DNA of 64,000 nucleotides. Origin: Apibacter adventoris (GTDB taxonomy: Bacteria; Bacteroidota; Bacteroidia; Flavobacteriales; Weeksellaceae). Positions 9,270-47,633 of this stretch are shown one piece after another. The translations under genes and the position numbers were made by a program. The stretch lies in the NCBI RefSeq assembly GCF_002964975.1, contig NZ_PSZM01000045.1, forward strand, positions 1 to 64,000, written 5' to 3'. Each line of letters opens with the position of its first letter. Within the stretch, counting starts at the first letter, position 1. The notes beneath the pieces were generated by a model. It did not search any database. It was not told the origin of the DNA and saw only the letters and a program-made list of their open reading frames with translations.

Positions 9270-9276
9270 ACCATTT

Positions 9277-32239: not shown

Positions 32240-32313
32240 GGTCCTATAGCTCAGCTGGTTAGAGCACCTGACTCATAATCAGGGGGTCCCTGGTTCGAGC
32301 CCAGGTGGGACCA
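32240..32313 (+). tRNA. tRNA with anticodon CAT (elongator Met or Ile2)
   Basis: Complete 74-nt cloverleaf: acceptor GGTCCTA pairs with TGGGACC, D arm GCTC/GAGC, anticodon stem CCTGA/TCAGG with loop CTCATAA, T stem CCTGG/CCAGG with TTCGAGC. The CCA tail is not encoded. The anticodon CAT outside an initiator context leaves elongator Met or lysidine-modified Ile2 as options. It is the integration site of the downstream element; its 3' part is repeated at 46053-46095. Confidence 0.95.
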
Positions 32314-32314
32314 C
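32272..32314 (+). repeat. attL: 43-bp direct repeat in the tRNA 3' half
   Basis: Runs from the anticodon loop (CTCATAATC...) to one base past the tRNA end. Identical over all 43 bp to 46053-46095; the flanking bases differ on both sides. A tRNA 3'-end duplication with a tyrosine integrase in between is the classic signature of site-specific integration. Confidence 0.93.
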
Positions 32315-32326
32315 ATTAAAAATCAG

Positions 32327-32357
32327 AGAGTTACATTTTCAATGTAGCTCTTTTTTA
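32327..32357 (+). terminator. Element-borne terminator after the tRNA
   Basis: Hairpin AGAGTTACATT / AATGTAGCTCT (one G-U pair) followed by TTTTT, just inside the left end of the element. The host's original terminator now lies at 46120-46147 beyond attR. Confidence 0.8.
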
Positions 32358-32362
32358 TTTTC

Positions 32363-32385
32363 AGGTGAAATATAGGTGAAACATT
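32363..32385 (+). repeat. Left pair of 11-bp-phased GTGAAA repeats (possible integrase arm sites)
   Basis: Two GTGAAA motifs at 32365 and 32376, exactly 11 bp apart, followed by CATT. A near copy with the same spacing and orientation lies at the other end (45918-45939). The position close to both att sites suggests arm-type integrase or excisionase binding sites. Confidence 0.5.
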
Positions 32386-32403
32386 TTGTATTTTTACTTT
32401 GTT

Positions 32404-33288
32404 ATGAGTGAAAAGATACTACCTTTTAAAAATTTAGACATATTTCTGAAAGTTGATATTTATAAAAAACTTAAATCATTTTATAAATCTTTTGAAAATG
32501 AGTATGATGGGTGCAGAATTAAAAATATAAATAAAAAGACTCATCAAATTGTATTTTACAGAGATTGTTATAAAGAAGGAGAATCTGAATTTGATATTTT
32601 AACCTTTGAAAATCACATCAAATATATATTACTAGAATATATACAAACTTCTATTGATAACCTTGAAATATTATTTCGGAACAATTTTGATAATAAAGAT
32701 AAAATACAGCAACTAGTAGATTTTTACTATATCCAGATTAATAAAATTTTTAATGAAAATCTTATTAATAAACTTACTTTTTTAAATAAATATAAAAATA
32801 TACTACAGGAAGAATTAGCACAATATGCTACATCAAAATACTCCGTTCCTTCACCAACAACATACTTATCTTATGTATTACTTGCTGAAACCCCAGAAAA
32901 ACAAATTAAAATAATAAAAAAACTCTACAATTTACTGATAAAGGAACCTGCTTTAATTGAAGCCACAGAAGAAGAATTTATCAATTCTTTTACAGGTAGA
33001 GAAGTAACAATTGGAATTAAATGGCTGGTTTTAGCTCCAAAAAATAAAATGGTAACTACTAATAAACCCTCTTTAATATACTTTATCAGAGCTCTTATTG
33101 ATAATAAATTTTTAAGCCCTAGTTATTACTCTAATGAAAATAAATTATTAATATATGTGTTTAGAGATAATAATGGAAAATCATTTACTTCACAACGAAT
33201 ATCTTCTTCTAAAACTGACATGTCTAAAAATCCTGCTGAAAGCAATAGAATAGACAATATAATTTATTCACTTGAAGAAATAGATTAA
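32404..33288 (+). CDS. Element-encoded hypothetical protein
   Basis: Protein of 294 residues, family not recognised with certainty. Largely helical and Lys/Asn-rich, with a middle helical segment (TYLSYVLLAETPEKQIKII) and a C-terminal part (IKWLVLAPKNKM..SLIYFIRALIDNKFLS) that faintly recalls the layout of RteC-like proteins found near integrases of Bacteroidota elements. The ATG at 32404 is preferred over the TTG at 32386, which would fall next to the GTGAAA repeats. First gene of the element. Confidence 0.65.
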   Translation: MSEKILPFKNLDIFLKVDIYKKLKSFYKSFENEYDGCRIKNINKKTHQIVFYRDCYKEGESEFDILTFENHIKYILLEYIQTSIDNLEILFRNNFDNKDKIQQLVDFYYIQINKIFNENLINKLTFLNKYKNILQEELAQYATSKYSVPSPTTYLSYVLLAETPEKQIKIIKKLYNLLIKEPALIEATEEEFINSFTGREVTIGIKWLVLAPKNKMVTTNKPSLIYFIRALIDNKFLSPSYYSNENKLLIYVFRDNNGKSFTSQRISSSKTDMSKNPAESNRIDNIIYSLEEID

Positions 33289-33455
33289 TCTATCTTATAA
33301 CTCCCCTTAGTAACTTTTTAGTCTAATTATATACCCTTATACCCTCATATAAGGGTATGGGTATTTACTCTAAACGTATTCCTGTATTTACTTTGACGCA
33401 GAATTGAAATCCGAAATTTTAAGAGCGCTCAGGATTTCACAATAGAAAACGTAAT

Positions 33456-33743
33456 ATGATAAAAGATTTTAATAAAAGTAAAAATTCCCAAAAGTTACAA
33501 ATGGTAACTCAAAAGGAAATTCTGAGTTTTAAAGAAGCGGTTCTTTATTTAGATGTTTCAGAAAGTTTTCTGTATAAACTAACTTCAAAAAAAGCTATTT
33601 GCTTTAGTAAACCCAATAATGGAAAAATCTATTTCAAAAAATCGGATTTAGATCGTTGGATGCTTCAAAACCAATCAAAAAGCATCGAAATTTTAGAAGA
33701 AGAATTAAATCAAAAAATTAAACAAAATGGGAAGAGTAAGTAA
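33456..33743 (+). CDS. Helix-turn-helix excisionase-like protein
   Basis: DNA-binding protein of 95 residues with a MerR-like helix_turn_helix_17 domain (about 25-70: LSFKEAVLYLDVSESFLYKL, then GKIYFKKSDLDRWM). Proteins of this type often act as excisionases or as AlpA-like regulators of integrases. The stop codon overlaps the start of the DUF5131 gene by 17 bp, so the two are translated together; the integrase follows. Confidence 0.8.
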   Translation: MIKDFNKSKNSQKLQMVTQKEILSFKEAVLYLDVSESFLYKLTSKKAICFSKPNNGKIYFKKSDLDRWMLQNQSKSIEILEEELNQKIKQNGKSK

Positions 33744-34503
33744 AATATCATGGACTAACTCTACATGGAGTCCCCATGAAGGATGTCAAAAAGTTTCTGC
33801 TGGTTGTAAATATTGTTATATGCACAGAATAATAGATAGTAAAGGTGATCCTAATTGTGATTCGAGTAAAGTACGAAAAAAAGAAGAAAATTTTAATGCA
33901 CCTTTAAATTGGATGGTTGGTAAAAAAATATTTACCTGCTCTATGTCAGATTTCTTTATTGAAGAAGCTGATGAATGGAGAGATGAATTGTGGAAAATTA
34001 TTAGAAAAACACCACGTCATACCTACCTGATTTTAACTAAAAGACCAGAAAGAATAAAAGATTGTCTTCCTAAAGATTGGGCTCCAGAATTTTATTCTCA
34101 TGTGTGGTTAGGTGTTACGGTAGAAAACCAGAATGAAGTACACCGAATCCATACTTTAGGAGAAATTCCTTGTAAATTAAGATGGGTATCATTTGAACCC
34201 TTATTAAGTGAAATATATTTAACAGATAAAGAAATAGATATTATTGACTGGGCTGTTATCGGAGGAGAATCTGGTCATGAAACAGGTAAATATCAATATA
34301 GAAAATCAGAATTATCCTGGTTTCTTAGTTTAATGTACCAATTAAGAAGTTCAAAAACTCCTATTTTTTTTAAACAATTTGGTACCTGGTATCATAAGAA
34401 TAAACTTTTCTTAAAAGATACCAAGGGAGAGGATTATTGCGATAACTTTCCTGATGGGTTTAAAATAAGAGAATATCCAGAAACAATTAAAAAAGAAGGA
34501 TAG
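33727..34503 (+). CDS. DUF5131 (phage Gp37/Gp68 family) protein
   Basis: Protein of 258 residues of the phage-associated DUF5131 family. Seen: ISWTNSTWSPHEGC near the start, a cysteine cluster with Cys20, Cys27 and Cys30 (C-x6-C-x2-C, CKYC), FTCSMSDFF, LTKRPERI, GVTVENQNE and IGGESG. The cysteine arrangement recalls an iron-sulfur or radical-SAM-like fold, but the activity is not established. It overlaps the upstream HTH gene and is followed by a hairpin terminator. Confidence 0.85.
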   Translation: MGRVSKISWTNSTWSPHEGCQKVSAGCKYCYMHRIIDSKGDPNCDSSKVRKKEENFNAPLNWMVGKKIFTCSMSDFFIEEADEWRDELWKIIRKTPRHTYLILTKRPERIKDCLPKDWAPEFYSHVWLGVTVENQNEVHRIHTLGEIPCKLRWVSFEPLLSEIYLTDKEIDIIDWAVIGGESGHETGKYQYRKSELSWFLSLMYQLRSSKTPIFFKQFGTWYHKNKLFLKDTKGEDYCDNFPDGFKIREYPETIKKEG

Positions 34504-34513
34504 AACTTTAACT

Positions 34514-34544
34514 AACTGCCTCATAACAAGAGGCAGTTTATTTT
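34514..34544 (+). terminator. Terminator after the DUF5131 gene
   Basis: Perfect 9-bp hairpin AACTGCCTC / GAGGCAGTT, followed by TATTTT. The integrase gene starts just downstream and so needs its own promoter or readthrough. Confidence 0.8.
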
Positions 34545-34562
34545 AATTATAATTAATTGAAT

Positions 34563-35771
34563 ATGAATGTAGCGAATGTGAAAATTGTATTAGGAAATCA
34601 ACCTTTATCAGATGATAAATTTGGTATTTATTTACGAATAACGAAAAATAGAAAAAAGAAAGAAATCGGAATAGGTTTACGATGTGAAAAAGAACATTTT
34701 ATTAATGAACAATTAACCAAAAATCATCCTAATTACCGAATTGAAAATGAATTAATCCTTAATTTAAAGTCAAAGGCATTAAAAATTATTCGGGAATTTC
34801 AACTACAAGAACAAGATTTTTCATTACAAGACTTTGAAGCCATATTTAGAGGTAATAATAACCAGGAGCTAAATATAATTCAATTTTTTGATGAGATAAT
34901 TAATGAAATGGAGAGGGCTGGAAGAATGGGAAACGCAAGGGCTTATAAAGAAACCAGAGATGCATTGGTCAAATTTTCAGGAAACAAAATAATATTTAAC
35001 GAAATAACTCCTGTATTTCTTGAAAAATTTGAAGTTGAAATGCGGGAAAGAGGAAATAAAGATGGTGGTATTGCTTTTAAAATGAGAGAGCTGAGAGCTA
35101 TTTTCAATAAGGCTATTAATCGGAAAATTATCACTCAGGATATATATCCCTTTAAAGATTATAAAATATCAAAACTTAAAACCAAGAAGAATAAAAAAGC
35201 GTTAAGTATTGAAGATTTCAAAAAAATAAGGGATGTTGATTTATCTGAATATCCTTACCTAATTGAAGCTCATAATTATTTCCTGTTCTCATTTTATACC
35301 AGAGGAATGAATTTCGTAGATATGATGAAATTAAAATGGTCTGATATACAAGATGGAAGAATTTATTATACAAGGTCTAAAACTAAAGGACAATTCAGTA
35401 TAGAAATAACTGAAAAAGTTGAAAAAATTCTAAATTATTATAAAGTTAATAATACAGAAAATTTGTATGTTTTTCCAATACTTCTAAAAGATAATTTAAC
35501 TCCTAAACAGATTGCGAATAGAAAACATAAGGTATTGGCTCGTTATAATTCCAAACTTAAACAAATTGCAAAAATTGCAGGAATTGAAAAACATTTAACC
35601 ACTTATGTAGCCAGGCATAGCTTTGCCACAATTTTAAAACAAATAGGAACAAGCACAGATGTTATATCTGAATTAATGGGACATTCTGATGTCCAAATTA
35701 CTATGACCTATTTAAAAGAATTTGATAATGATGTATTGGATAAGGAAAACAGGAAACTTTTAGAACTGTAA
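34563..35771 (+). CDS. Tyrosine-family site-specific integrase
   Basis: Integrase of 402 residues with an N-terminal arm-binding domain, a SAM-like core-binding domain (about 100-200), and a catalytic domain. Catalytic residues as I read them: Arg247 (FYTRGMNFVD), Arg351 (TYVARHSFAT), His374 (MGHSDVQIT) and the nucleophile Tyr383 (MTYLKEF). It is the Bacteroidota type in which the HxxR box reads YVAR. It probably recombines the 43-bp tRNA repeat at both ends. The ATG at 34563 is preferred to a TTG two codons earlier. Confidence 0.95.
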   Translation: MNVANVKIVLGNQPLSDDKFGIYLRITKNRKKKEIGIGLRCEKEHFINEQLTKNHPNYRIENELILNLKSKALKIIREFQLQEQDFSLQDFEAIFRGNNNQELNIIQFFDEIINEMERAGRMGNARAYKETRDALVKFSGNKIIFNEITPVFLEKFEVEMRERGNKDGGIAFKMRELRAIFNKAINRKIITQDIYPFKDYKISKLKTKKNKKALSIEDFKKIRDVDLSEYPYLIEAHNYFLFSFYTRGMNFVDMMKLKWSDIQDGRIYYTRSKTKGQFSIEITEKVEKILNYYKVNNTENLYVFPILLKDNLTPKQIANRKHKVLARYNSKLKQIAKIAGIEKHLTTYVARHSFATILKQIGTSTDVISELMGHSDVQITMTYLKEFDNDVLDKENRKLLEL

Positions 35772-35838
35772 ACTTATACATCGAGTTTTTCCTAACAATT
35801 AAATAAAAATTGTTAACCCCTTAATTTTAAAACTTAAT

Positions 35839-36582
35839 ATGTACATGACAAATTTTGAATTTAGTCTGATTGATGAATTAGACTGTATTGAAAAACAAGA
35901 AGATAAATTAAAAAGAAGCTCTTGGGATGATGAAAAAGATAACATTCCTGATTATCACAAAATAGAATTATACGATTATAATAAAACCCATGAAGAAAAT
36001 TTTAAATCAGGAAGTGATAAAAAATATATTTTAATAGCAGTGGAAGGAAATAAACATTTCACCGTTACTAATTCTGAATTTATTTTTCCTACTCCACAAA
36101 GTAAGTGTTTGGTAGATATTTCCAAAGTAGAAGAATTCAGCAATTTAGAATTTATTCCTATGGATTATGATACTATTTTTGGTACACGATTTACCACATT
36201 TATCAAGTATAATAGTAATTTCTTCTTATGTGATGAAAGAATCATTTTTGAAGCCTTATTAATCAAGTTAAAATCCTTTGATTATAAACCTTTCTACTGG
36301 TCAAAAGAAATGATTTTTAAAGAAGCAGGAATAAAAAAGGACAGAGCTACAAAAATCATAGAAAGATTTAAAGAATTAGGTATTTTATCAACGGAAATAA
36401 AAAAAAGTATTATTAACAGCAGACCACAACAAATCACCTACTACACACTACATCCTGAAAAAATACTGGAATTACTTCCCAAAATATTTGAAGGTAGAGA
36501 CAACCTTAAATCCATTGAAAATGAATTAAATACTTATCTAAAACCTATACTAAAAAAATCTGCTTATAATACCTTATTATAA
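35839..36582 (+). CDS. Winged-helix protein of the element, hypothetical
   Basis: Protein of 247 residues, not assigned to a known family. The first 35 residues are acidic. Residues about 130-205 look like a winged helix (IFEALLIKLKSFDYKPFYWSKEMI..AGIKKDRATKIIERFKELGIL, then a wing QQITYYTLHPEK). Its position between integrase and AAA ATPase suggests a replication-initiator or regulatory role, but that is inference. Followed by a strong terminator. Confidence 0.65.
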   Translation: MYMTNFEFSLIDELDCIEKQEDKLKRSSWDDEKDNIPDYHKIELYDYNKTHEENFKSGSDKKYILIAVEGNKHFTVTNSEFIFPTPQSKCLVDISKVEEFSNLEFIPMDYDTIFGTRFTTFIKYNSNFFLCDERIIFEALLIKLKSFDYKPFYWSKEMIFKEAGIKKDRATKIIERFKELGILSTEIKKSIINSRPQQITYYTLHPEKILELLPKIFEGRDNLKSIENELNTYLKPILKKSAYNTLL

Positions 36583-36605
36583 GTCAAACTAATTAAAAAT
36601 ATATA

Positions 36606-36643
36606 AAAAGGTTACTTTGTAAATTTCAAAAGTAACCTTTTTT
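36606..36643 (+). terminator. Terminator after the winged-helix gene
   Basis: Hairpin AAAGGTTACTTT / AAAGTAACCTTT with a run of T. Confidence 0.85.
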
Positions 36644-37004
36644 CATGGTAGGAATTCCTCTGACTATATAGTTAAACAAGTTCCCATACATTATCTTTTA
36701 TTGATGGATTTTCTCCAATGGAAAATAATTTTCTTGCATTTTCTGTTGATTCCATTTTCGGAATTCTTCCAATACTATAATAATTCTATATAATTTAATA
36801 AGTTTCAGAATTTCATAAAAACCAGGAGAAAAAAATATATAGTAAGCAAATTCCTACAATGTTTCAAAATATATTCATTCAGAGTATATAAAAATATAAT
36901 ACATTGATTATTACATATAGTTGATGAACTTATTCATTTCTAACATTTAATATTCTTCATTTTAAAACCTAATCCCTAAATAAAAAATATTAAACATTAC
37001 AATT
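36644..37004. other. Intergenic region with a small orphan reading frame
   Basis: No full gene. On the minus strand, 36672-36755 encodes a 27-residue frame (starts MESTENARKLFSIG, ends NVWELV), open for ten more codons upstream (GRIPK). Its composition looks protein-like, so it may be the tail of a lost gene. The rest is A/T-rich leader for the AAA ATPase gene; no clear promoter. Confidence 0.35.
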
Positions 37005-37943
37005 ATGCAATTAAAACAAAGAGAAAGAAAACAAGTAAGGCTCCGATTAGGATTATCTGGAGCATCTGGATTTGGAAAAACCAAATCAGCCCTATTATTA
37101 GCCTATGGAATGACACAGGACTGGAGTAAAATAGCTGTGATTGACACAGAAAATTCCTCTGCTTCTCTTTATTCAGATTTAGGAAATTATAATGTACTGG
37201 ATTTATCCATTCCCTATTCTCCTGAAAGATATATTCAGGCTATAGAACTTTGTGAAAAATCGGGTATTTCTGTTATTATTATCGATTCTATCACTCATGA
37301 GTGGTCTGGTACTGGTGGATGTTTGGAAATTCATGAGAAATTAGGTGGAAGATTTCAGGATTGGAGTTTGGTTACTCCCAGACATCAGGCATTTATCAAT
37401 AAAATTCTTCAATCTTCTTGTCATATTATTACTACAGCCAGAAGAAAGGTAGATTATTCTTTAGATGTAGGTTCTAATGGAAAAACTAAAGTAGTAAAAC
37501 ATGGAACTAAGGAAATTACCAGAGAGGGATTTGAATATGAGCTTACAGTTAATTTTGAACTTATTAATGATAAACATTTGGTCAAAGCTAGTAAGGACAG
37601 AACAGGTTTATTTATGAATCAACCTGAATTTATCATCACTCCTAAAATAGGAAAACGAATTTTAAATTGGTGTAATGAAGGGACTTCCTTACAACCAGGA
37701 GAAGAAGTAACTCATGTGCAAAAATCTGAAAAACATGAAGAAGTTACCATAAATTCAGTCAGGGAGAAAATACAACTCGTTAATTCCATTTCTGAATTAC
37801 TTGTATTGTATAAACAATACCCTGAATATCAGCAGGTATTACATAACGAATATGAAAATAGAAAACATTTCTTACTTCAATTAACTAATCCTCAAAACTT
37901 TTCAACCAATGGAAAATATACTCATACCCCAACAAATTCCTGA
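37005..37943 (+). CDS. AAA-family ATPase (AAA_24, phage recombination type)
   Basis: ATPase of 312 residues. Walker A GASGFGKT at about 19-26, Walker B IIIDS at 91-95, and TTARRK later (sensor-like). The RecA-like core matches the phage and element ATPases of the AAA_24/Sak4-like type, which help single-strand annealing or replication (family knowledge). The last 35 bp overlap the DUF3871 gene, so the two are likely a functional pair. Confidence 0.85.
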   Translation: MQLKQRERKQVRLRLGLSGASGFGKTKSALLLAYGMTQDWSKIAVIDTENSSASLYSDLGNYNVLDLSIPYSPERYIQAIELCEKSGISVIIIDSITHEWSGTGGCLEIHEKLGGRFQDWSLVTPRHQAFINKILQSSCHIITTARRKVDYSLDVGSNGKTKVVKHGTKEITREGFEYELTVNFELINDKHLVKASKDRTGLFMNQPEFIITPKIGKRILNWCNEGTSLQPGEEVTHVQKSEKHEEVTINSVREKIQLVNSISELLVLYKQYPEYQQVLHNEYENRKHFLLQLTNPQNFSTNGKYTHTPTNS

Positions 37944-39030
37944 TAAGGAGAATCAACTGGTATTACGGAGAATAAATCCTCCTAATAATCAAGTTACATT
38001 ACAAAATAATTTCCCTGAATCTTCTGCAAACTTTATACAAGAATACTCTTCTTCTCCTGGTTTTATAAAACAATCAGAATCCATTATAAAACCAGAAAAT
38101 AAATCCTACAAACATAAACCTTTTATTGAAGCGAATACTACAGAGATAAACTTACCCCATTTAAAACAAGAGTGTATTATTCCTGTATTCTCTAAGGATA
38201 ATGAAAGGACTATTGCTCATCAGGAGTTTATAGAAATTACCCAAGATTGTATAAGTAAGATATTTCCTCATCATAGTTTAGAAATTCCAGAAATTCGGGT
38301 ATCTCATCAGATTAAGGGAAGAATACCCGAAGCCATACATAAAAATGCTAAGGATTTATTAGACCATGAGAAAACCATTTATTATGAAAGAATGGCATTT
38401 ATTATCAGAATTCCAAGCATTACCGAAGAGATACAAGGTAACCCTTTAGAATTAACTGTTGGAGGGGTAAGAGCTTACAATCAAGAAAATTTATACAACA
38501 AAAAAACTATGGAAAAGTTTAAGTTTTTTATTGGTTTTCAGAATCTGGTGTGTTGCAACTTATGTGTAAATTCAGATGGATATGTAGAGGATATGCGTGT
38601 TTCTTCCTACCAGGAACTACAGAATAGTATTCTACAGGTATTACAAAAGTACGAAGCAGAGAGGCATATATTCCAAATGAAACAACTCCCTGAATATAGT
38701 TTGACAGAGCAGCAATTTGCTCAATTATTAGGAAAAACAAGATTGTATCAGCATTTACCCAAAAAGGAAAAAGAGAACTTACAAATTCCTGAATTGATTT
38801 TTAATGATAGTCAGTTTTCTACTATTGCAAAAGATTATTATCTGGATAAGAGTTTTTGCAGGGATTCAACAGGAAATATTAATTTATGGAAAGTGTATAA
38901 TTTATTTACCCAAGCCAATAAATCAAGTTATATTGATACATTTCTGGAAAGGAATGTAAATGCATTGAGTTTTACTGAAAGTATTCAAAAGACAATGGTG
39001 GATAAGTCTTATCATTGGTTTTTGAGTTAG
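37909..39030 (+). CDS. DUF3871 family protein
   Basis: Protein of 373 residues of DUF3871, known mainly from Bacteroidota mobile elements. Seen: an unstructured N-terminus (1-110), then RVSHQIKGRIPEAIHKNA, EKTIYYERMAFIIRIP, LTVGGVRAYNQENLY, IGFQNLVCCNLC and the late LFTQANKSSYIDTFLER. The fold and role are not known to me; some resemblance to DUF932-type element proteins is inference. Starts inside the AAA ATPase gene. Confidence 0.85.
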   Translation: MENILIPQQIPDKENQLVLRRINPPNNQVTLQNNFPESSANFIQEYSSSPGFIKQSESIIKPENKSYKHKPFIEANTTEINLPHLKQECIIPVFSKDNERTIAHQEFIEITQDCISKIFPHHSLEIPEIRVSHQIKGRIPEAIHKNAKDLLDHEKTIYYERMAFIIRIPSITEEIQGNPLELTVGGVRAYNQENLYNKKTMEKFKFFIGFQNLVCCNLCVNSDGYVEDMRVSSYQELQNSILQVLQKYEAERHIFQMKQLPEYSLTEQQFAQLLGKTRLYQHLPKKEKENLQIPELIFNDSQFSTIAKDYYLDKSFCRDSTGNINLWKVYNLFTQANKSSYIDTFLERNVNALSFTESIQKTMVDKSYHWFLS

Positions 39031-39037
39031 TTTTTTT

Positions 39038-39066
39038 ACCTGCCTCAAATTTTGAGGTGGGTTTTA
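39038..39066 (+). terminator. Terminator before the restriction-modification cargo
   Basis: 10-bp hairpin ACCTGCCTCA / TGAGGTGGGT with two G-U pairs and a TTTT run. It separates element core genes from the cargo. Confidence 0.7.
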
Positions 39067-39125
39067 TATCCTATAAAATGAGTTTGATAATTTTATTGCT
39101 AAATTTGTTACAAAATTATTTTGTA

Positions 39126-40292
39126 ATGAATTTTAAAATAATAGGTCTTGGCTCTAATTTAGATTTAGAAAACTCATTAGGAAATGAACTTATTCAAATA
39201 TTTGAAAGTCATGAATATAATAAAGTTCATATAATTACTGCATTTTCTAGTTTAAGTGCTGTTAATGGTATTATTTCACTTTCTAAAGAAAATAAAATAA
39301 GTGATTTAACAATTATAACAGGTATAGATCAAAAAGGCACTTCAAAAGAAGCTCTTGAAGAATTATTAAACTCTACAGCCAAATCATACATTTTTTATAA
39401 TCCTTCAAATATTATTTTTCATCCAAAAATATATTTTTTTGAGGGTATAGATAAGATTAAAGTAATAATTGGTTCTTCAAATTTAACATCACAAGGACTT
39501 TTTCAAAATATGGAAACTTCAATATGTGTTGAAGTAAATAAGAATGAAGATTTAAGTCTAATTAAAGATTTAACGCAAAATTTTAGTTCATTATTTGATT
39601 TATCTGATAAAAATTTAAAAGAGATATCGAAGGAGTTAATTGAAGAATTATCAAAACTTGATATTATTCCAAATGAAATAGATAGGAAAAGAAGTTACTC
39701 AAAAAGTAGCATTAGAGAGAAAAATAATAGGGAAAAAATAATATCCTTATTTCCAAAAAGAAAATCTGCAAAAATTAATCAAAAATTTAAAAAATCAAAA
39801 TTTATAGAGAGCATTTCTGATATAGAAGAAGATATAGCAGAAGTTGATTTTTTAGATAATAATAAAGAGGAAATATTAGTTTGGAAAAGTTCAGCATTAA
39901 AGGAACGTGACTTAAATATCCCCACAGGAAAAAATACTAATCCAACAGGTTCCATACTTTTAAAAAAAGGGGAAACAGAAAATATAGATCAAAGGCATTA
40001 TTTCAGAGATGAAGTTTTTAATAACTTAGACTGGACTAAGGATAAAACTCACAATCATATTGAAAGAGCTCTTGCCACTTTTAAAATTATTATTGAAGAT
40101 AATGAAGTAGGATTGTTTACTTTAAAACTCTCTCATAATACTGATATTGAATCTGTGACATATAAACAAAAAAATTCAATGACTAATATTAGTTGGGGGA
40201 AAGCAAAAGAATTTATTGCTAAACCAGAACTATTGGGTAAAAAAATAGAATTATTTAAAAAAGAGGATTTGTTTATCCTAAAAATTAATTAA
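39126..40292 (+). CDS. PLD-fold restriction endonuclease (NgoFVII/BfiI-like)
   Basis: Predicted nuclease of 388 residues. N-terminal phospholipase-D-fold half with the H-x-K catalytic set His99, Lys101 and downstream Ser-Ser-Asn119 (FHPKIYF, then GSSNLTSQGL). A charged linker spans about 165-255. The C-terminal part (RHYFRDEVFNNLDW, GLFTLKLSH, NISWG) matches the DNA-recognition layout of NgoFVII-like enzymes. Such enzymes cut DNA without metal ions and usually dimerise. It lies 2 bp before an adenine methyltransferase gene, with which it makes a type II restriction-modification system. Start at 39126, because upstream residues are hydrophobic spacer. Confidence 0.85.
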   Translation: MNFKIIGLGSNLDLENSLGNELIQIFESHEYNKVHIITAFSSLSAVNGIISLSKENKISDLTIITGIDQKGTSKEALEELLNSTAKSYIFYNPSNIIFHPKIYFFEGIDKIKVIIGSSNLTSQGLFQNMETSICVEVNKNEDLSLIKDLTQNFSSLFDLSDKNLKEISKELIEELSKLDIIPNEIDRKRSYSKSSIREKNNREKIISLFPKRKSAKINQKFKKSKFIESISDIEEDIAEVDFLDNNKEEILVWKSSALKERDLNIPTGKNTNPTGSILLKKGETENIDQRHYFRDEVFNNLDWTKDKTHNHIERALATFKIIIEDNEVGLFTLKLSHNTDIESVTYKQKNSMTNISWGKAKEFIAKPELLGKKIELFKKEDLFILKIN

Positions 40293-40294
40293 AA

Positions 40295-41896
40295 ATGAAA
40301 CTTATAACAGAAGCATCAGCAGAAAAATTGCGAGGAGGGTTTTACACACCTTCTGTTATTGCTGATTTTATTTTAAAATGGGCTTTTACTGGTGCTGAAA
40401 ACGTTGATATACTAGAGCCTAGTTGTGGTGATGGTATCTTTCTATCACAAATAAGAAATAATGGTTTTCAATTTAAATCACTAAAGGCTATAGAACTTGA
40501 CCCAACAGAATATGAAAAAGCAAGTGCCTTAAAGAGTGAAAATACAACTATAATTAACTATGATTTTTTAGAATATTGTAACAAAACTAATGAAAAATTT
40601 GACATTATAATTGGTAATCCTCCTTATATAAGATACCAATTTTTTGATAAAGAACAACAAACAGAAGCAGAAAAAATATTTAAATCTGCCAAACTTAAAT
40701 TTTCAAAGCTAACAAATATTTGGGTATCTTTTGTTATAGGGTCTTCTTTATTACTAAAAGAAGAAGGTAAAATTGGTTTTGTATTACCTGCTGAAATTTT
40801 ACAAGTATCATATGCTAAAGAATTAAGAAATTTTTTAGCTAATTTTTATAATAAAATTTCAATTATTTCTTTTGAAAAACTTGTGTTTCCAAATATTCAA
40901 CAAGAGGTTGTCTTGCTATTATGTGAGAAAAATAATACTCAGCAACATTCAATAAATCATGTTGAATTGAAAGATGCAAATGATTTACTCAAATTTGACT
41001 TACCACGTTTAGAAAATAATAGAAAACATATTGATTTCAATAATAATAAATGGACATTCTATTTCTTAGAACAAGAAGAAATTAATTTTTTAGAGAATGT
41101 AGCATTAAAATATAATATTCCTTTAATTAAAAATTTCGCAAATGTGGAAGTTGGTATAACTACAGGCGCAAATAATTTTTTTACAATAAATAAAGATACT
41201 GTAAAAGATTTTGGATTAGAAGAATATGCTTTGCCATTAGTGGGAAGGAGTGTACAAGTTAATAGTTTAATATTTAGTGAGGCAGATTGGATTGAAAATG
41301 TAAATAATGATTCAAAAGCTTATTTAGTAAGTTTTCCTTCAAAAACCTTAAAACAATTAAATGGAGCAAAACAATACATAAAGTTTGGGGAATCTTTGGA
41401 TATTCATAAAGGATATAAAACAGGTATTAGAGATTTTTGGTATGTAGTCCCATCATTAAAAAAATCTGATGCTTTATTTGTTAGAAGAAATCATAAATAT
41501 CCAAAATTAGTTATTAATGAAGCTTCTGCCTATACAACAGATACTATGCATAGAGTTTATATACACTCTAAAGTTAATAAAGATTCTTTTGTAGCAAGTT
41601 ATTATAATTCTTTAACTTTCGCATTTACAGAAGTTTGCGGAAGAAGTCATGGAGGAGGAGTATTGGAGCTAATGCCTAATGAAGTGGAATCAGTTCTTTT
41701 ACCATATCATAAAAATAATCATGAACTGATTGAAAAAATAGATGATATGATCCGTAACAAAGAAGATATTGAACAGATTCTAAAAATTACTAATAAAATT
41801 ATACTTAAAGAGAATTTTGGAATGAGTGATTATGAAATTTCTATAGCTCATAGCATATGGAAAAAATTAATGAATAGAAGGATCAATAGGAATTAA
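40295..41896 (+). CDS. N6-adenine DNA methyltransferase (Eco57I/TaqI-like)
   Basis: DNA methyltransferase of 533 residues. FYTP near 16-19, SAM-binding motif EPSCGDGIFL at 41-50, catalytic NPPY at 108-111, followed by a target-recognition region in the C-terminal half. It methylates adenine in a specific DNA site and protects it from the adjacent PLD nuclease. Order nuclease-methylase with minimal spacing argues for one transcript. It is not fused to a nuclease domain. Confidence 0.9.
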   Translation: MKLITEASAEKLRGGFYTPSVIADFILKWAFTGAENVDILEPSCGDGIFLSQIRNNGFQFKSLKAIELDPTEYEKASALKSENTTIINYDFLEYCNKTNEKFDIIIGNPPYIRYQFFDKEQQTEAEKIFKSAKLKFSKLTNIWVSFVIGSSLLLKEEGKIGFVLPAEILQVSYAKELRNFLANFYNKISIISFEKLVFPNIQQEVVLLLCEKNNTQQHSINHVELKDANDLLKFDLPRLENNRKHIDFNNNKWTFYFLEQEEINFLENVALKYNIPLIKNFANVEVGITTGANNFFTINKDTVKDFGLEEYALPLVGRSVQVNSLIFSEADWIENVNNDSKAYLVSFPSKTLKQLNGAKQYIKFGESLDIHKGYKTGIRDFWYVVPSLKKSDALFVRRNHKYPKLVINEASAYTTDTMHRVYIHSKVNKDSFVASYYNSLTFAFTEVCGRSHGGGVLELMPNEVESVLLPYHKNNHELIEKIDDMIRNKEDIEQILKITNKIILKENFGMSDYEISIAHSIWKKLMNRRINRN

Positions 41897-41922
41897 CTTA
41901 AAACTATATTGTTTAAGTATTT

Positions 41923-42119
41923 TAACTCAAGTTGCTAGTTTAATAATATTGATAATCATTTAATTATAAATATATTATTTTATAAAAAGGTTAATTATCC
42001 AAATTTCAACATGGCTTACAAATTTATATTTTCGGATTATTCACTCATTGTCAGGGAAATATAAATTTTCAATAATAAAAAGAATTATAATTTATCAAAA
42101 TAACTAGCAACTTGAGTTA
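41923..42119. repeat. MITE-like segment with 18-bp terminal inverted repeats
   Basis: TAACTCAAGTTGCTAGTT at 41923-41940 and its exact reverse complement at 42102-42119 enclose 161 bp without a reading frame. Nested inverted repeats inside (AAATTTATATTTTC against GAAATATAAATTT, and TTGATAA against its complement) would let the whole piece fold as a long hairpin. Flanks show ATTT on both sides, a possible short target duplication. It could be a MITE or a structured RNA or DNA element. Confidence 0.65.
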
Positions 42120-42351
42120 TTTGAATTAAAAATAATTTATAATCTTCATATTATATTTTCCTAAAAAACTTTCCACGCATAACCTACCCTAATTAAATAC
42201 CCCCACAAGTTTTAAAGGGAAAACCTCCCCCCACCACTTATATAGGAAACAAAACAATTTCCAAACAGTATAAAAATTCAAGATGAAAGCTGAATCTTTT
42301 TTACCTGGATTTTTGTTTCCTGGTGGTACACTAACTCAAAAACATAAAACA
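42120..42351. other. Upstream region of the three-gene RadC block
   Basis: A/T-rich, with two C-rich stretches (ATACCCCCACAAG and CCTCCCCCCACCAC) near 42198 and 42228. No promoter of the TAnnTTTG type and no gene. Confidence 0.3.
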
Positions 42352-42759
42352 ATGGTAAAAATTATCAACTACAAAGAAAGAAAAAGAGAAGACGGAACTT
42401 CCTTTTTTGTATTGGAAATCTCTGGTGGAATAGAAATGCTGTTAAGCCAGAAAACAGGAAATTATTATGCAACTGCTAAAAAAGCCTATTTATCCTGCAC
42501 TTTTGATGAACTGGTTTGTCAATCCTTACTCGGTTCAGAAATACCAGGAAAAATAGAAAAACAGGAATGTGAACCTTATGAATATATGGTAAAAGATACG
42601 GGAGAAGTTTTACTCCTTAGTCACCGATATACTTATCTTCCTGGTTCTAATAATCCACAAATACAATCTACTACTCACAAGGAAAATACTTCTCCCTACA
42701 TTCAAAAGGAATTAGCAGAGAATCATACATTTTCCTTAAATGAAGAATTAACCATTTAA
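42352..42759 (+). CDS. Element-encoded hypothetical protein
   Basis: Protein of 135 residues, family not recognised. It is beta-rich, starts MVKIINYKERKREDG and carries SGGIEMLLSQKTGNYYATAKKAYL. No cysteine cluster or signal. The ATG at 42352 was preferred to that at 42283 because the upstream codons (PGFLFPGGTL) look like spacer. Followed by a long hairpin terminator. Confidence 0.6.
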   Translation: MVKIINYKERKREDGTSFFVLEISGGIEMLLSQKTGNYYATAKKAYLSCTFDELVCQSLLGSEIPGKIEKQECEPYEYMVKDTGEVLLLSHRYTYLPGSNNPQIQSTTHKENTSPYIQKELAENHTFSLNEELTI

Positions 42760-42766
42760 TTTTTAA

Positions 42767-42826
42767 TACGTCCATTTTTTGTATTCTTATTATATAAGTG
42801 TTGCAAAAAGTGGACGTACTTTTTTA
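42767..42826 (+). terminator. 15-bp hairpin terminator
   Basis: TACGTCCATTTTTTG pairs with CAAAAAGTGGACGTA (one G-U pair) over a 22-nt loop, followed by CTTTTTT. A similar long hairpin with G-U pairs lies at 43689-43745. Confidence 0.7.
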
Positions 42827-42838
42827 ATATTATTTTAT

Positions 42839-43180
42839 ATGTCATCAATATCTACCTTTAATAACCTAGAAAACTATGGGTACAGAGAATTAGCTTTAGC
42901 TATAGAACTCTTAACCCTTTATAGTGAATACAAACTACCAGAATCTTTTGTAGAGGAAGATGTTACTATTATGTTTAATCATTACAGTGGAATGGTATTT
43001 ATAACGAATGAAGAATATCAAGTCTTGGTAGCAAATAAAGGAAGGTTAGAACTATTTTATACTACTCCTTATAAGGGAATAGAAGGATATAAAGAAGAAC
43101 TACTGGAAATGTTAAGTAATGGAGAAATCACTCATTCTGAGGATATAGAATTTGTTTTAGCCTTAACTACCGATAAATAA
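42839..43180 (+). CDS. Element-encoded hypothetical acidic protein
   Basis: Protein of 113 residues, acidic, family not recognised. It starts MSSISTFNNLENYG at 42839; an upstream in-frame ATG at 42779 would lie in the terminator hairpin. It has ELALAIELLTLYSEYKLPE and YGMVFI-like segments (SGMVFITNEEYQVLV). It lies 14 bp ahead of the RadC-like gene, so co-transcription is likely. Confidence 0.6.
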   Translation: MSSISTFNNLENYGYRELALAIELLTLYSEYKLPESFVEEDVTIMFNHYSGMVFITNEEYQVLVANKGRLELFYTTPYKGIEGYKEELLEMLSNGEITHSEDIEFVLALTTDK

Positions 43181-43194
43181 AGAATTATCATTTT

Positions 43195-43632
43195 ATGAAA
43201 GTATCAGAAATAAAAGTCTCCTATACTAATAAAAACCAGGAGAAAATAAAAATAGAGGATAGTACTCAATTATATGATTTAGCCATATCTATTTGGAATA
43301 TGAAAACTATTGAATTGCAGGAAGAGGTAAAAGTATTATATTTGAATAGAAACAATCTTGTATTAGGATATTATAGTTTAGCTAAAGGTGGAATTTCTGC
43401 TTGTTGTGTAGATATAAGACTTATACTTAGTACCGCTTTAAAAGCCAATGCTTCTGCTATTGTAGTAATACATAATCATCCTAGTTCTAATCCTAATCCT
43501 TCTAAAAGTGATTGGAATTTAACGGAAAAAATACAACAGGCTTGTAAGTTATTGGATTTAATATTTGTAGATCATTTGGTAATAACTAAAGAAAACTATT
43601 TTAGTTTTGCGGATAAGGGATTTTTCTTGTAA
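43195..43632 (+). CDS. RadC-like JAB/MPN domain protein
   Basis: Protein of 145 residues with the JAMM signature: Glu at 43-44, then H93-N-H95 and a Ser/Asp in PSKSD (Asp106), so a zinc-binding site is expected. RadC-type proteins are common passengers of mobile elements and plasmids in Bacteroidota; the activity in DNA metabolism is not settled. It lacks the N-terminal helix-hairpin-helix domain of chromosomal RadC, which is usual for element versions. Confidence 0.9.
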   Translation: MKVSEIKVSYTNKNQEKIKIEDSTQLYDLAISIWNMKTIELQEEVKVLYLNRNNLVLGYYSLAKGGISACCVDIRLILSTALKANASAIVVIHNHPSSNPNPSKSDWNLTEKIQQACKLLDLIFVDHLVITKENYFSFADKGFFL

Positions 43633-43688
43633 AAAATCCGAAATTTACTGTTGAGTTATATAAGAAGAAATGTGAAATTTAGATTTTT

Positions 43689-43745
43689 ATGCACGTTTTT
43701 TCTAGGGATTATATATAAGATTATAGAAAAAGTGTGCATTATTTT
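43689..43745 (+). terminator. 16-bp hairpin terminator after the RadC-like gene
   Basis: ATGCACGTTTTTTCTA pairs with TAGAAAAAGTGTGCAT through two G-U pairs over a 19-nt loop, followed by TATTTTAT. A further smaller hairpin (TCCTGGTTT / AAACCAGGA) lies at about 43786-43816. Confidence 0.7.
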
Positions 43746-43923
43746 ATAAATCTGTATGATGTTAAAAATATAATTTTCTTCTTTTCCTGGTTTATTCAAG
43801 ATTATAAAAACCAGGAGATAAAGTATTTATAGTGAAAGTGTGAAGTAGTTAATTCTACTCCTTAAAAGGTTAATTACAGAACTTTATAAAATTTAATAGA
43901 TAGTATTAATAGCGTTTTTATTT

Positions 43924-44148
43924 TTATAAAGTCTTAAAATTAAGTAACTCAAAAACTTCAATATCGAGCTGTAAGGCTATTTTATAGAGTGTATAAGTAG
44001 AGGGGCAAGTATTGCCCATTTCAATTCTACTCATATTTGACCTTTCAAAATCACACATATTGGCAAGTTCTACCTGAGAGATATTTTTACTTTCTCTCAA
44101 TTGCTTAATTCTCTTGCCTATTAATATTTGGAATTCTTGTTTAGTCAA
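43924..44148 (-). CDS. XRE-family regulator
   Basis: Small Cro/C1-type helix-turn-helix protein of 74 residues (IKQLRESKNISQVELANMCD, then SNMSRIEMGNTCPS). It begins with TTG, as no ATG is available in frame before residue 26. It has the size of restriction controller proteins but lies 2 kb from the restriction genes. Divergent from the gene at 44250, and a palindrome in between (44201-44214) may be its operator. Confidence 0.88.
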   Translation of the reverse strand: MTKQEFQILIGKRIKQLRESKNISQVELANMCDFERSNMSRIEMGNTCPSTYTLYKIALQLDIEVFELLNFKTL

Positions 44149-44200
44149 ATTTTATAGAATACTAATAGTCAAAATTTGGAATAACTTAAATTTATATTGC

Positions 44201-44229
44201 TATCAATTTTGATACTTATTATATATTTG
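44201..44229 (+). promoter_or_regulatory. Promoter with palindromic XRE operator
   Basis: Palindrome TATCAA-TT-TTGATA at 44201-44214, and TATATTTG (-7 element) at 44222-44229. A -33-like TTG lies at 44197-44199. A repressor on the palindrome would sit between the two elements. A partial copy (GTCAAAATTTG) lies near 44169, closer to the regulator gene. Confidence 0.5.
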
Positions 44230-44249
44230 TTAAATTAAAAAAGTAACAA

Positions 44250-44648
44250 ATGGAAGTATTAGAAAAATTAATTGATGAAAATTATAGTAAGTTAAGTAAG
44301 CAAAAGGTATTAGATATTGCACAAGAGCAAGCTAATCATCTAATGATTAAAACTAATTCTTTATTACAAGCTAATCTTTATAATTGGGATAATGAAAAAT
44401 TAAAAGAGTATTCATATCGAGTTCAATCTTATGCTAATATAATCTCATATATTTTATCAGTTAAGAACAATGAATATAATTCAGATTTTAAGAAAATAGC
44501 AAAAATAAATGCCAATGATTTAATTACATTAATTAGAAAGGAAACAGAAGATATTTTTTTGAATTCTAGTCTTAATAATCAACAAAACATTATTGAAGAA
44601 ATTTATATACCTAACTTATTATTAAAATGGGTTATAAATAATTATTAG
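44250..44648 (+). CDS. Element cargo, hypothetical helical protein
   Basis: Protein of 132 residues, family not recognised, predicted all-helical (VLEKLIDENYSKLSKQKVLD, YSYRVQSYANIISYILSV). No signal peptide or cysteine motif. Transcribed divergently from the XRE gene under a clear TAnnTTTG promoter, and so probably controlled by it. Confidence 0.6.
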   Translation: MEVLEKLIDENYSKLSKQKVLDIAQEQANHLMIKTNSLLQANLYNWDNEKLKEYSYRVQSYANIISYILSVKNNEYNSDFKKIAKINANDLITLIRKETEDIFLNSSLNNQQNIIEEIYIPNLLLKWVINNY

Positions 44649-44771
44649 AATAATATAAAACCCACAGATAAGTGAATAATATTAGTTAAAACATTAAAAT
44701 TTAGATATTTAACATCTATTACAGTTTTATAATTTCAAGGATAAATTATTTACTTTAAAATATAATAAACA

Positions 44772-45278
44772 ATGAAACATTTACTAACATTTCTATTAAC
44801 ACTATCAACATTAACAATAATTAATGCCCAAAATTCATATACCAATTCATTCATTTCAAATAATGATTTGATGGAAATACTTAGTTATGATTTTTACAAA
44901 GCGAAAACTTTTTTAGAAAATAGAAATTGGGATTACCTTGATAAAAAAGATAATGTATATAGGTATTACAATTTATCAGATAGAAATTCATCAATTTATC
45001 ATGAGATTAATAAAAATAAAAGTTTGAATACTATTACTTATATAACGGATGGTGATACAAGTATAGAAGGAAGTAGAAATCGTCTTAAGATAGAAGCAGA
45101 TTTAGGTAATTATAAATATATTGGAAGTACTACTACACAACAAACAGTAAATTTAATTACTTATCAAAATAATAGATATACAATTATATATAAAGAACTT
45201 GAAGATAATAATGGTCATATAATAACTTTTTCAAGAAAAATAGTATTTAACGAAAATTATAATGCAGATATAAAATAA
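44772..45278 (+). CDS. Element cargo, secreted hypothetical protein
   Basis: Protein of 168 residues with a signal peptide (MKHLLTFLLTLSTLTIINAQ). The mature part is small, rich in Asn and Tyr, with no recognised domain (FLENRNWDYLDKKDNVYRYY). Likely periplasmic or secreted. Function unknown. Confidence 0.6.
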   Translation: MKHLLTFLLTLSTLTIINAQNSYTNSFISNNDLMEILSYDFYKAKTFLENRNWDYLDKKDNVYRYYNLSDRNSSIYHEINKNKSLNTITYITDGDTSIEGSRNRLKIEADLGNYKYIGSTTTQQTVNLITYQNNRYTIIYKELEDNNGHIITFSRKIVFNENYNADIK

Positions 45279-45363
45279 TGAATTATTAGAAAAGTGGAAT
45301 CAAATTTATATTCAGTCACTCTTAAATATAGAGTGGTTTTTTTATACCCAAAAATCAAAAAAT

Positions 45364-45681
45364 ATGAATACAAATATACCTTTTCAGCTAGGAATGGAAT
45401 ATGAGAACTGGGAATTTGATTTAGAGCCAATTAATGACAGAATAATAGGACATGACAGCTATATTTATATTAAGAAACTATCAATTTTTGATGTTGAACC
45501 TATTAATGTAGAACTTATATTCCATTGGGATATTCTGGTTGCTATAATTTTAGAATTTGAAGAATCAGATATAATTAAATTGGATAAAATTTTATTATCT
45601 GATTATATTCGGGTTAATAATTATTTTTATAAATCGGAAGTTCAAATAAAATCTAGGATTTACAAATCTCTATTACAATAA
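45364..45681 (+). CDS. Element cargo, small protein of a paralogous pair (copy 1)
   Basis: Cytosolic-looking protein of 105 residues. The segments MEYENWEFDLEPI (12-24) and VELIFHWDILVAIILEFEE correspond to YENYEFDLVEF and RIILYFNADILMKVEIIIE in the 60-residue neighbour at 45740. Small acidic paired proteins of this kind in mobile elements are often immunity or antitoxin proteins, but I see no toxin next to them. Confidence 0.6.
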   Translation: MNTNIPFQLGMEYENWEFDLEPINDRIIGHDSYIYIKKLSIFDVEPINVELIFHWDILVAIILEFEESDIIKLDKILLSDYIRVNNYFYKSEVQIKSRIYKSLLQ

Positions 45682-45739
45682 ATTAAATTTCTTATAAGAT
45701 ATATAATCATTTTATCCTGGTTTTTTGAATATATATATA

Positions 45740-45922
45740 ATGAATATTATATATGAAAATTACGAATTTGATTTGGTTGAGTTTCGACCCTCTCAAATTT
45801 CAGAAAATGGACTGAGATATGAAATATATGAGTATGTAGGGAAATTGAAATTACCAGGAAAAAGAATAATATTGTATTTTAATGCAGATATTTTGATGAA
45901 AGTGGAAATAATAATTGAGTGA
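45740..45922 (+). CDS. Element cargo, small protein of a paralogous pair (copy 2)
   Basis: Protein of 60 residues starting MNIIYENYEFDLVEF and ending EIIIE. It shares with the upstream 105-residue protein the YEN-[WY]-EFDL start and the end IILYFNADILMKVEIIIE. It could be a shortened copy. ATG at 45740 chosen over a TTG at 45725. The stop codon lies in the right-end GTGAAA repeats. Confidence 0.5.
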   Translation: MNIIYENYEFDLVEFRPSQISENGLRYEIYEYVGKLKLPGKRIILYFNADILMKVEIIIE

Positions 45923-45939
45923 AACATAAGTGAAACATT
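45918..45939 (+). repeat. Right pair of 11-bp-phased GTGAAA repeats
   Basis: GTGAAA at 45919 and 45930, 11 bp apart, followed by CATT; matches the left-end pair (32363-32385) in sequence and orientation. Distance to attR 114 bp, versus 48 bp from attL to the left pair. Confidence 0.5.
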
Positions 45940-46052
45940 ATATCAGAATATTACAAAATAAAGCAGATAAATGAAAATCATATTTTACATATATTGTTAA
46001 TAATCAATTATTTGAAAACAAATGATAGAAATAGAAAGATTATTATCTTCGT

Positions 46053-46095
46053 CTCATAATCAGGGGGTCCCTGGTTCGAGCCCAGGTGGGACCAC
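46053..46095 (+). repeat. attR: truncated tRNA copy
   Basis: 43-bp exact copy of the tRNA segment 32272-32314. The 5' part of the tRNA is missing, and there is no promoter, so it is not a functional gene. Confidence 0.93.
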
Positions 46096-46119: not shown

Positions 46120-46147
46120 AAAACCTATATTACATATAGGTTTTTTT
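46120..46147 (+). terminator. Original host terminator of the tRNA gene
   Basis: Perfect hairpin AACCTATAT / ATATAGGTT with a 3-nt loop and seven T. It follows attR and must have ended the tRNA transcript before integration. Confidence 0.75.
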
Positions 46148-47223: not shown

Positions 47224-47633
47224 AAATTATTAATATTTGTTTATTTTTAATAGTAATCCTAAGTTGTACTAAACATAAATCACTTATGGATTCCGACACA
47301 AACACTCAGCTCAAAGTAAAAAAAGAAATACATACTAAACAGATGCAGTATATAAACCCGGAAGAAGTAAAAAATTGGACTCTCCAACAAATCAAAGAGA
47401 AATATAAACCTATACAAGAAGAAGATTTTTTATTAAATGAAGCTATTATATCAGAGTTTAGAATTGGGTTATATAATTTTTTTAATGAAAAAGAAAGAAA
47501 AAAACCTATAACGATTAAAGAAATTACCTGGGAAAAAGATCAAAATACCAATTATACCATTTGGTATAGAAAAGAATTGAACCAGTGGGTTTTTATCGAT
47601 TCTTTTATATGGGATAAGAATTCGGAATTTTAA
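47220..47633 (+). CDS. Small lipoprotein (possible immunity protein)
   Basis: Lipoprotein of 137 residues with a lipobox (ILSC, Cys16). It overlaps the metallopeptidase gene by 4 bp (ATGA), so translation is coupled. The mature part is basic and then Trp-rich (WYRKELNQWVFIDSFIW). The family is not recognised. A periplasmic lipoprotein next to an unexported peptidase would fit an immunity protein that stops an incoming peptidase in the periplasm. Confidence 0.65.
   Translation: MKIINICLFLIVILSCTKHKSLMDSDTNTQLKVKKEIHTKQMQYINPEEVKNWTLQQIKEKYKPIQEEDFLLNEAIISEFRIGLYNFFNEKERKKPITIKEITWEKDQNTNYTIWYRKELNQWVFIDSFIWDKNSEF

Follow-up and report, generated by a model that had tools for sequence, protein, structure and literature searches.

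A tRNA-inserted element of Apibacter adventoris and its relatives across Bacteroidota: a possible family of phage-satellite-like hitchhikers with exchangeable defence genes

What is the 13.8-kb region that lies between two copies of a tRNA 3' end in Apibacter adventoris, and by what means does it travel? The question is raised by a 64,000-nucleotide stretch of this bacterium's DNA (assembly GCF_002964975.1, contig NZ_PSZM01000045.1, positions 1 to 64,000; hereafter the window), in which a sequence-only reading had proposed an integrative element in a CAT-anticodon tRNA gene, bounded by an exact duplication and carrying an integrase, an excisionase-like helix-turn-helix (HTH) protein, a regulator and cargo. 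The element contains an integrase and an AAA_24 gene followed by a DUF3871 gene between tRNA repeats, the combination by which we define a little-described family found across Bacteroidota with swappable antiviral genes. With respect to its movement, we see about an even chance that the element is a self-integrating, phage-satellite-like hitchhiker of the tRNA-specific 'hitcher' type.

The two ends of the region have exactly 43 bp in common, at 32272-32314 and 46053-46095, this being their longest shared substring, as had been claimed. A single tRNA was found by ARAGORN across the whole window, at 32240-32314 on the forward strand (the strand of every feature below unless noted), with a CAT anticodon; it is labelled Met, a label that does not tell Met from Ile2. 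The left copy of the repeat is the 3' part of this gene and the recombination core of the left attachment site (attL), and because ARAGORN recognised only one tRNA, the right copy (attR, 46053-46095) is a tRNA 3' fragment and no second gene, so the repeats cannot be explained as two tRNA genes. The predicted excised circle measures 13,781 bp. Nor is an empty site lacking among related strains: in one of the eight other genomes of the genus compared at this tRNA (G006), the intact tRNA runs straight into a homologue of the sequence that follows attR, the match being 85% over 118 bp when part of the tRNA is included and 78% over the 79 bp of flank alone. A terminator-like hairpin at 32325-32353, found by the terminator scan, is absent from this empty site, and a second hairpin with a T run lies beyond attR at 46121-46147, where it was noted by eye and missed by the scan. 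Because of the empty site, the simplest view is that the tRNA was originally terminated, in the host, by the hairpin beyond attR, and that at 32325-32353 is taken as borne by the element, which supports the earlier suggestion of a replacement terminator. The ends and the empty site together demonstrate integration of the element into the tRNA gene.

This simple picture of the site is complicated by the other genomes of the genus. The post-attR flank was found at the tRNA only in G006, with different 3' flanks in the other seven, and in G008 the tRNA is followed by an attL-like terminator (89% over 53 bp), with no element gene detected within 10 kb downstream. The 3' side of this CAT tRNA is a variable hot spot, and one of these seven genomes, that of A. 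muscae (G002), has a family member of its own at a tRNA-CAT whose upstream region is related. Past attR in the window, a DUF5655/HSDR_N_2 protein on the reverse strand (48287-49195) matched the PADLOC candidate defence family PDC-S18 (6e-140), and defence genes may therefore also be present on the host's side of this hot spot. In G003, a tRNA 3' fragment, the terminator and homologues of two post-attR genes (46567-47633) were seen at another place (L050, G003:C9:75476-77546), adjoining a broken DUF3871 gene in opposite orientation; a piece of the flank seems to have moved.

The family was traced through the DUF3871 protein (37909-39030 in this element). Ten of 60 relatives encode it, as do 16 of 395 genomes sampled across the phylum, the source genome being included in both counts; it was also found in 29 loci of named Bacteroidota genomes and metagenome-assembled genomes and in all 23 genomes behind 23 of 24 loci, seven of these with two rows (separate or split copies). 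Degenerate copies, with stops or in fragments, occurred in G003, G006 and G018. In 46 of 57 loci the gene immediately before DUF3871, in the same orientation, was AAA_24 (here 37005-37943; Pfam 9e-15); among the other 11 are contig ends, degenerate copies, four loci from a viral collection, a Bacteroides finegoldii record and G081, which has AAA_24 but with an overlap beyond the limit. Forty-one assembled DUF3871 loci were screened for a copy of part of a tRNA, and 20 elements, this one included, were delimited. They are 9.9-23.5 kb long from the tRNA start to the end of attR, have repeats of 14-52 bp (at least 21 bp in 17) and are inserted in tRNA genes of six isotypes (Met 9, Asn 6, Asp 2, Ser 1, Arg 1, Val 1). 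Most of the 21 loci left undelimited had no tRNA or second copy in reach; the rest included two of odd layout (G074, with 23 bp and a tRNA 10 kb away, and G079a, with 56 bp and a tRNA on the other strand), one with only a 12-bp repeat (G072) and three in which the matches fell between neighbouring tRNA-Val genes (G064b, G066 and G068). With exact repeats, one empty site and these delimited relatives, the proposal of an integrative element in the CAT tRNA is borne out.

The tyrosine integrase (34557-35771), AAA_24 and DUF3871 were present in all 20 elements, the SSB-like candidate described below (g10) in 17, the HTH regulator in 17, a RadC-like protein in 12, the small proteins g16 and g17 in nine and seven, and the excisionase (Xis) candidate, an excisionase-like HTH_17 protein (33456-33743), in six. 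Since the 20 elements were chosen by DUF3871 and tRNA repeats, the count for DUF3871 is uninformative and only the other counts inform; and since the clusters were made by BLAST, low counts may hide diverged members. The sequence-only reading had suggested that a core set of genes defines a family of small elements. Such a family exists, with integrase, AAA_24 and DUF3871 as its constant core and g10, the HTH regulator and RadC as frequent members, but two further proposed core genes were each found in only 2 of the 20 elements and are rejected as such, namely an accessory DUF5131 protein (33727-34503; TIGR04471-like, far below the cut-off of that model) and a 247-residue protein thought to have a winged helix (g5, 35839-36582).

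Several records lie outside the delimited set. The B. finegoldii record (L052, NZ_OY725960), circular, 15.5 kb long and labelled a plasmid, carries DUF3871, integrases and a restriction-modification gene and is perhaps the excised form of a distant relative; it was not counted as a member, having neither AAA_24 nor g10 by profile. A viral-collection contig (L154) was considered as a circular form and set aside, as its 83-bp terminal repeat starts exactly at the 3' end of a tRNA-Asn and may be the attL and attR of an integrated copy. In IMGVR_UViG_2847593706 (L152/L153) two backbones stand head to tail, each with a helicase-like gene, AAA_24, DUF3871 and g10, and no integrase match was found within the stretches examined. 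A 4.25-kb 'Bacteriophage sp.' record from human faeces (L163, MT839478) has AAA_24 followed by DUF3871.

The family is also modular. A second element in the source genome, at tRNA-Ser(GGA) on contig C40 (G000:C40) with a 44-bp repeat, shares 90-96% DNA identity with the first in five blocks, together with a 33-bp inverted match; the common blocks include AAA_24-DUF3871 and parts of the right arm, whereas the integrase is only 26% identical and the replication-type gene and cargo differ. The comparison shows that modules have been exchanged between elements. To the left of AAA_24, before or after the integrase, five of the 20 elements have a DEAD/ResIII helicase-like protein of 757-839 residues, four a DUF3987-type protein, three a member of an unnamed family (c13) and two a member of the g5 family. 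The Pfam scans covered 55 of 56 left-arm, 60 of 71 right-arm and 104 of 123 cargo open reading frames (ORFs). Among the families listed, DEAD was matched by five and DUF3987 by four of the 55 left-arm proteins; DUF5906 was matched by two of the 104 cargo proteins, and L154 has a VapE-like domain to the right of DUF3871 (5e-41).

In the present element the slot after DUF3871 holds a candidate restriction nuclease of PLD/NgoFVII-like type (39015-40292) and an Eco57I-type N6-adenine DNA methyltransferase (40295-41896), which probably form a type II restriction-modification pair. A 29-bp inverted repeat (41912-41940 and 42102-42130, 83% complementary) marks the cargo's right-hand edge, in the gap that separates the methyltransferase gene from g10. 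As with this element, the cargo of relatives is rich in restriction-modification genes and includes methylases, HsdS/M/R and McrBC. Among the 25 of 347 PADLOC families listed, type I and II methylases and specificity subunits were the commonest, and among the 25 of 61 Pfam families listed the counts were N6_Mtase 7, Eco57I 6, Methylase_S 4, HsdM_N 4 and McrBC 2.

What the conserved proteins do bears directly on how the element may travel. Relatives of AAA_24 were found in 409 of 50,697 phage records (56 across at least 80% of the query), and 11 of the 20 phage matches listed were annotated as RecA-like recombination proteins. To judge from these sequence relatives, AAA_24 is a phage-type RecA-like protein. 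The predicted structure of the DUF3871 protein (predicted local distance difference test score, pLDDT, 78; first 64 residues disordered) gave 18 Foldseek matches to viral models at E<=1e-3, four of them named DUF932 and one TIGR03299, with a best E of 3.8e-7 to an unnamed protein, template-modelling (TM) scores by target of up to 0.62 and identities of 8-13%. The model resembles phage DUF932 proteins in fold, a likeness which implies no function. Against solved structures it gave three chance-level sequence matches and VIA Z scores of at most 5.9, to actin-capping proteins, a comparison that is uninformative. The g10 protein (42283-42759, most aligned relatives starting at M24, about 42352) is predicted to have the order beta-beta-beta-alpha-beta-beta, that of an OB-fold, and is a candidate for a single-stranded DNA-binding protein (SSB). 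No relative by sequence was found in the PDB for g10, g5 or the c13 family, and c22, present in two of the three elements without g10, was not recognised as an SSB. The idea, formed by eye, that c13 is polymerase-like was dropped, no support for it having been found in Pfam, PHROGs or PDB sequences. We infer that AAA_24, g10, DUF3871 and the RadC-like JAB-domain protein (43195-43632) process or anneal DNA.

With respect to transfer genes, a Pfam scan at E<=0.1 of all 17 ORFs of the element gave no match to relaxase or type IV families, and no virion structural family was found above the cut-off among the 17 in Pfam or among 10 of them in PHROGs, in agreement with what had been read from the sequence. 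A Phage_Mu_Gp48 match inside the integrase (E 0.068) was taken as chance. Scans of the left arms of the family (among 25 of 26 families listed) and of the right arms likewise gave no relaxase and no clear virion family, a weak crAss_MUZ match of one right-arm protein (E 0.001) again being taken as chance. By coordinates, no match to the relaxase families PF03432 or PF01076 lay inside any of the 20 elements. In their host genomes PF03432 had 19 matches, in 11 of 16 genomes, and PF01076 one, all outside the elements; the source genome, searched for these two relaxase families only, had no match to either.

Because no transfer genes were recognised, we propose that the element travels by hitching, most likely in phage particles. 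A phage satellite is the reading that we prefer, because AAA_24 has phage relatives and because there is a precedent in the Pseudomonas islands I23, I44 and I55, which have an integrase, RadC in many cases, defence cargo and no transfer genes, and of which I55 is carried by a jumbo phage (available text of PMC12595487). On this proposal the integrase and the Xis-like protein would recombine the 43-bp 3' end of the host tRNA with the same sequence on the 13,781-bp circle, so that the tRNA would be rebuilt at attL and the old terminator would come to lie outside attR. The element would be kept quiet by a CI-like regulator that is divergent from a small operon (a small Cro/CI-type HTH protein is encoded on the reverse strand at 43924-44148, divergent from the genes on its right). 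On relief of the regulator the circle would be excised and then replicated by a module of its own, one that varies from element to element, and AAA_24, the SSB-like protein, the DUF932-like DUF3871 protein and RadC would process or anneal the DNA ends. As no relaxase or virion gene was recognised, the DNA is proposed to leave in the particles of an infecting phage, while the swappable slot after DUF3871 would carry restriction-modification or other defence genes against competing phages.

A number of points weigh against this proposal. The AAA_24 match to RecA (8e-15) was obtained with an artificial multi-RecA fusion, and with single RecA chains the value was 0.17 or worse. AAA_24 and g10 were considered as a Sak4-SSB pair and the idea was dropped: hhalign gave 6% over 21 columns against the Sak4 protein of phage HK620 and 1.5% against its SSB, the Sak4 comparison being a weak test of a single sequence against a shallow profile. 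AAA_24 is accordingly not called Sak4, since no relation to that of HK620 was found. Most of the top Foldseek matches of g10 are SSBs, but they are weak (E 6e-3 or worse, TM 0.2-0.4, VIA Z at most 5.3), and g5, a protein of no family, is a replication candidate only through its place to the left of AAA_24, where other elements have helicase- or primase-like genes. The Pfam result for cargo represents 25 of 61 families. No helper phage, packaging site, terminase-like gene or capsid-remodelling gene was recognised, and the element is known here from sequence as an integrated copy, from which excision, replication and packaging are surmised. We nonetheless kept to our estimate for the satellite reading after the loss of the Sak4 label, because the case for linking AAA_24 to phages had meanwhile grown stronger.

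The relaxases of the host genomes suggest another vehicle, namely mobilisation by conjugation in trans, in which the element would supply a cis-acting transfer origin (oriT), and an integrative and conjugative element (ICE) or plasmid in the same cell would supply the relaxase and type IV system. PF03432 relaxases do occur in 11 of the 16 host genomes of delimited elements, and oriT-only and other conjugative hitchers are known (described in PMC11389934, as far as its available text goes). The source genome is without a match to either of the two families searched, however, none lies in the 20 elements, and the many phage relatives of AAA_24 speak for a different carrier, so that we consider this route unlikely. 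An element with its own integrase might also need no dedicated vehicle and arrive passively, by generalised or lateral transduction or by natural transformation. Integration genes alone would suffice for establishment after any entry of DNA, and satellites mobilised by natural competence have been reported (PMC13376191, in the text available). Against this, passive movement would leave no need for the regulator, for the replication-type genes that relatives carry or for the conserved AAA_24-DUF3871 core, and it seems to us improbable as well. That the element is plasmid-like or prophage-derived, mainly vertical and rarely moving, with a core for maintenance and repair, as the circular B. finegoldii record and the degenerate DUF3871 copies of G003, G006 and G018 might suggest, is very improbable: the family is scattered (10 of 60 and 16 of 395 genomes), one genome of the genus has an empty site, and the sister element differs in both its tRNA and its integrase, all of which points to movement.

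A further feature of the element is a dispersed heptamer, ACCAGGA, with 14 sites between 34315 and 45859 on both strands (order-3 expectation 2.9) and none in the cargo genes (39031-41896), against four in the other 50 kb of the window. The second element has 15 sites. The same form was found in G061a and G070, ACCTGGA in G064a and G080 (seven sites in G080) and ACCTGGG in G071. As a class test, the top over-represented 8-mer had a CCWGG core in six of the 20 elements and in none of 38 flanking segments; the segments partly overlap and the elements are partly related, and this test is fairer than counts in seven elements, which were picked after the motif was seen. In the class test 14 of the 20 delimited elements are without the motif, or 13 if G080 is counted. 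In the seven chosen elements the backbone (67 kb) had 69 sites and the cargo (43 kb) had 11, on both strands and in genic and intergenic DNA, and in each of the seven none of 400 synonymous-codon shuffles reached the observed genic count. Coding sites were on the gene's strand in 34 cases and against it in 27; read as CCAGG, 43 of 61 were on the gene's strand, a lean only, which codon usage might cause. A high 8-mer score alone is not special, for the best z of the element was 8.9 and two of 29 control segments were higher (9.5 and 18.5), with other words.

We regard the enrichment of the heptamer in element backbones as new, and no explanation for it was found. The HTH regulator is disfavoured as its reader: the first and second elements share ACCAGGA but have two HTH types, and G061b and G012 lack the motif although the recognition regions of their regulators closely resemble those of the second element and G071. 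A restriction site of the cargo was rejected, as the second element has the motif without this cargo. Permutation values for gene family against motif (0.01-0.26), uncorrected for relatedness and for eight families, are not relied on. The layout recalls the stoperators of mycobacteriophages, dispersed asymmetric repressor sites whose orientation follows transcription (PMC9283540, available text), whereas here the orientation only leans to the gene's strand. A tentative extension of the satellite reading, which we think rather doubtful, is that of a phylum-wide Bacteroidota satellite family, many of whose backbones would be marked by their own ACCWGGR heptamer (about one per kb, both strands, scarce in cargo); a protein of the element or its helper phage, concerned with silencing, replication or packaging, would read it to tell element from host DNA. 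If true, helper or immunity specificity would be visible in the mark.

The remaining genes of the element are small or without family. They comprise g1 (32386-33288, 300 residues), g11 (42779-43180, 133 residues), g14 (44250-44648) and g15 (44772-45278), all of no family, g15 being common to the second element of the genome, and the small proteins g16 (45364-45681) and g17 (45725-45922), which by eye resemble each other. Elsewhere in the window, the 8-mer CAAATGCC has nine copies in positions 1-14000 against 0.2 expected, perhaps within a repeated gene or domain.

Phage satellites are known chiefly from Pseudomonadota and Bacillota; if they have a counterpart in Bacteroidota, the questions asked of them could be extended to a large part of the bacteria of the gut, bees, water and soil. 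Through the family DUF3871 acquires a genomic context and a predicted fold, AAA_24-DUF3871 beside a tRNA is a marker for finding defence cargo, and the dispersed heptamer is a specific, testable puzzle. No description of a DUF3871-AAA_24 element family was found in the literature searched, in the parts of it that were open, subscription journals being mostly outside its reach; DUF3871 was named in one paper found, as a table row beside an integrase (PMC10434189, available text).

How, then, does the element compare with known systems? Among mobile elements of the same phylum, the nonreplicating Bacteroides units (NBUs) and similar integrative mobilisable elements share tRNA integration and a tyrosine integrase. 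The present element differs from these and from ICEs in that no relaxase was found among its ORFs or, for two families, in the 20 elements. The Charybdis elements are not related, as far as can be seen from the available text of PMC12324425. The AAA_24 protein is like the RecA-like protein of Acinetobacter phage TRS1 (hhalign 100%, 44% identity), but the next gene there is unrelated to g10 (hhalign 0.1%), and here AAA_24 adjoins DUF3871 in a non-viral island. As with the Sak4 and SSB module of HK620 (PMC5928155, in part), a RecA-related protein and a possibly SSB-like companion occur in one element, although there is no detectable sequence relation to either HK620 protein.

In size, att repeats, own integrase, divergent regulator, defence slot and the absence of recognised virion genes the element is like the phage satellites of the phage-inducible chromosomal island (PICI) and P4-like groups, which have been defined as 7-20 kb elements with regulatory and DNA replication genes (PMC13376191, available text). 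Replication-type genes (VapE-like, helicase, DUF3987) are also shared, but they are in its relatives, g5 of this element being without a family. It is unlike these satellites in that no packaging-redirection or capsid gene was recognised, no helper is known and the core genes are different, and no Bacteroidota satellite was noticed in the parts of the satellite literature surveyed. The Pseudomonas islands I23, I44 and I55 (PMC12595487, from the text available for all that follows) are inserted in the gene for transfer-messenger RNA (tmRNA) and measure about 23, 44 and 55 kb, whereas the present family uses tRNAs; their core consists of AlpA, YqaJ and Gp2-like genes, against AAA_24, DUF3871 and g10. 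The insertion in tRNA-CAT and an excisionase-like HTH_17 protein for which no AlpA family was reported set the element apart from the tmRNA intY/AlpA islands, and carriage by a jumbo phage has been demonstrated for I55 in Pseudomonas. With these islands the element has in common a tyrosine integrase, insertion between direct repeats that derive from a small-RNA gene's 3' end, RadC and HTH genes in many members, defence cargo that includes type II restriction-modification and no recognised transfer genes.

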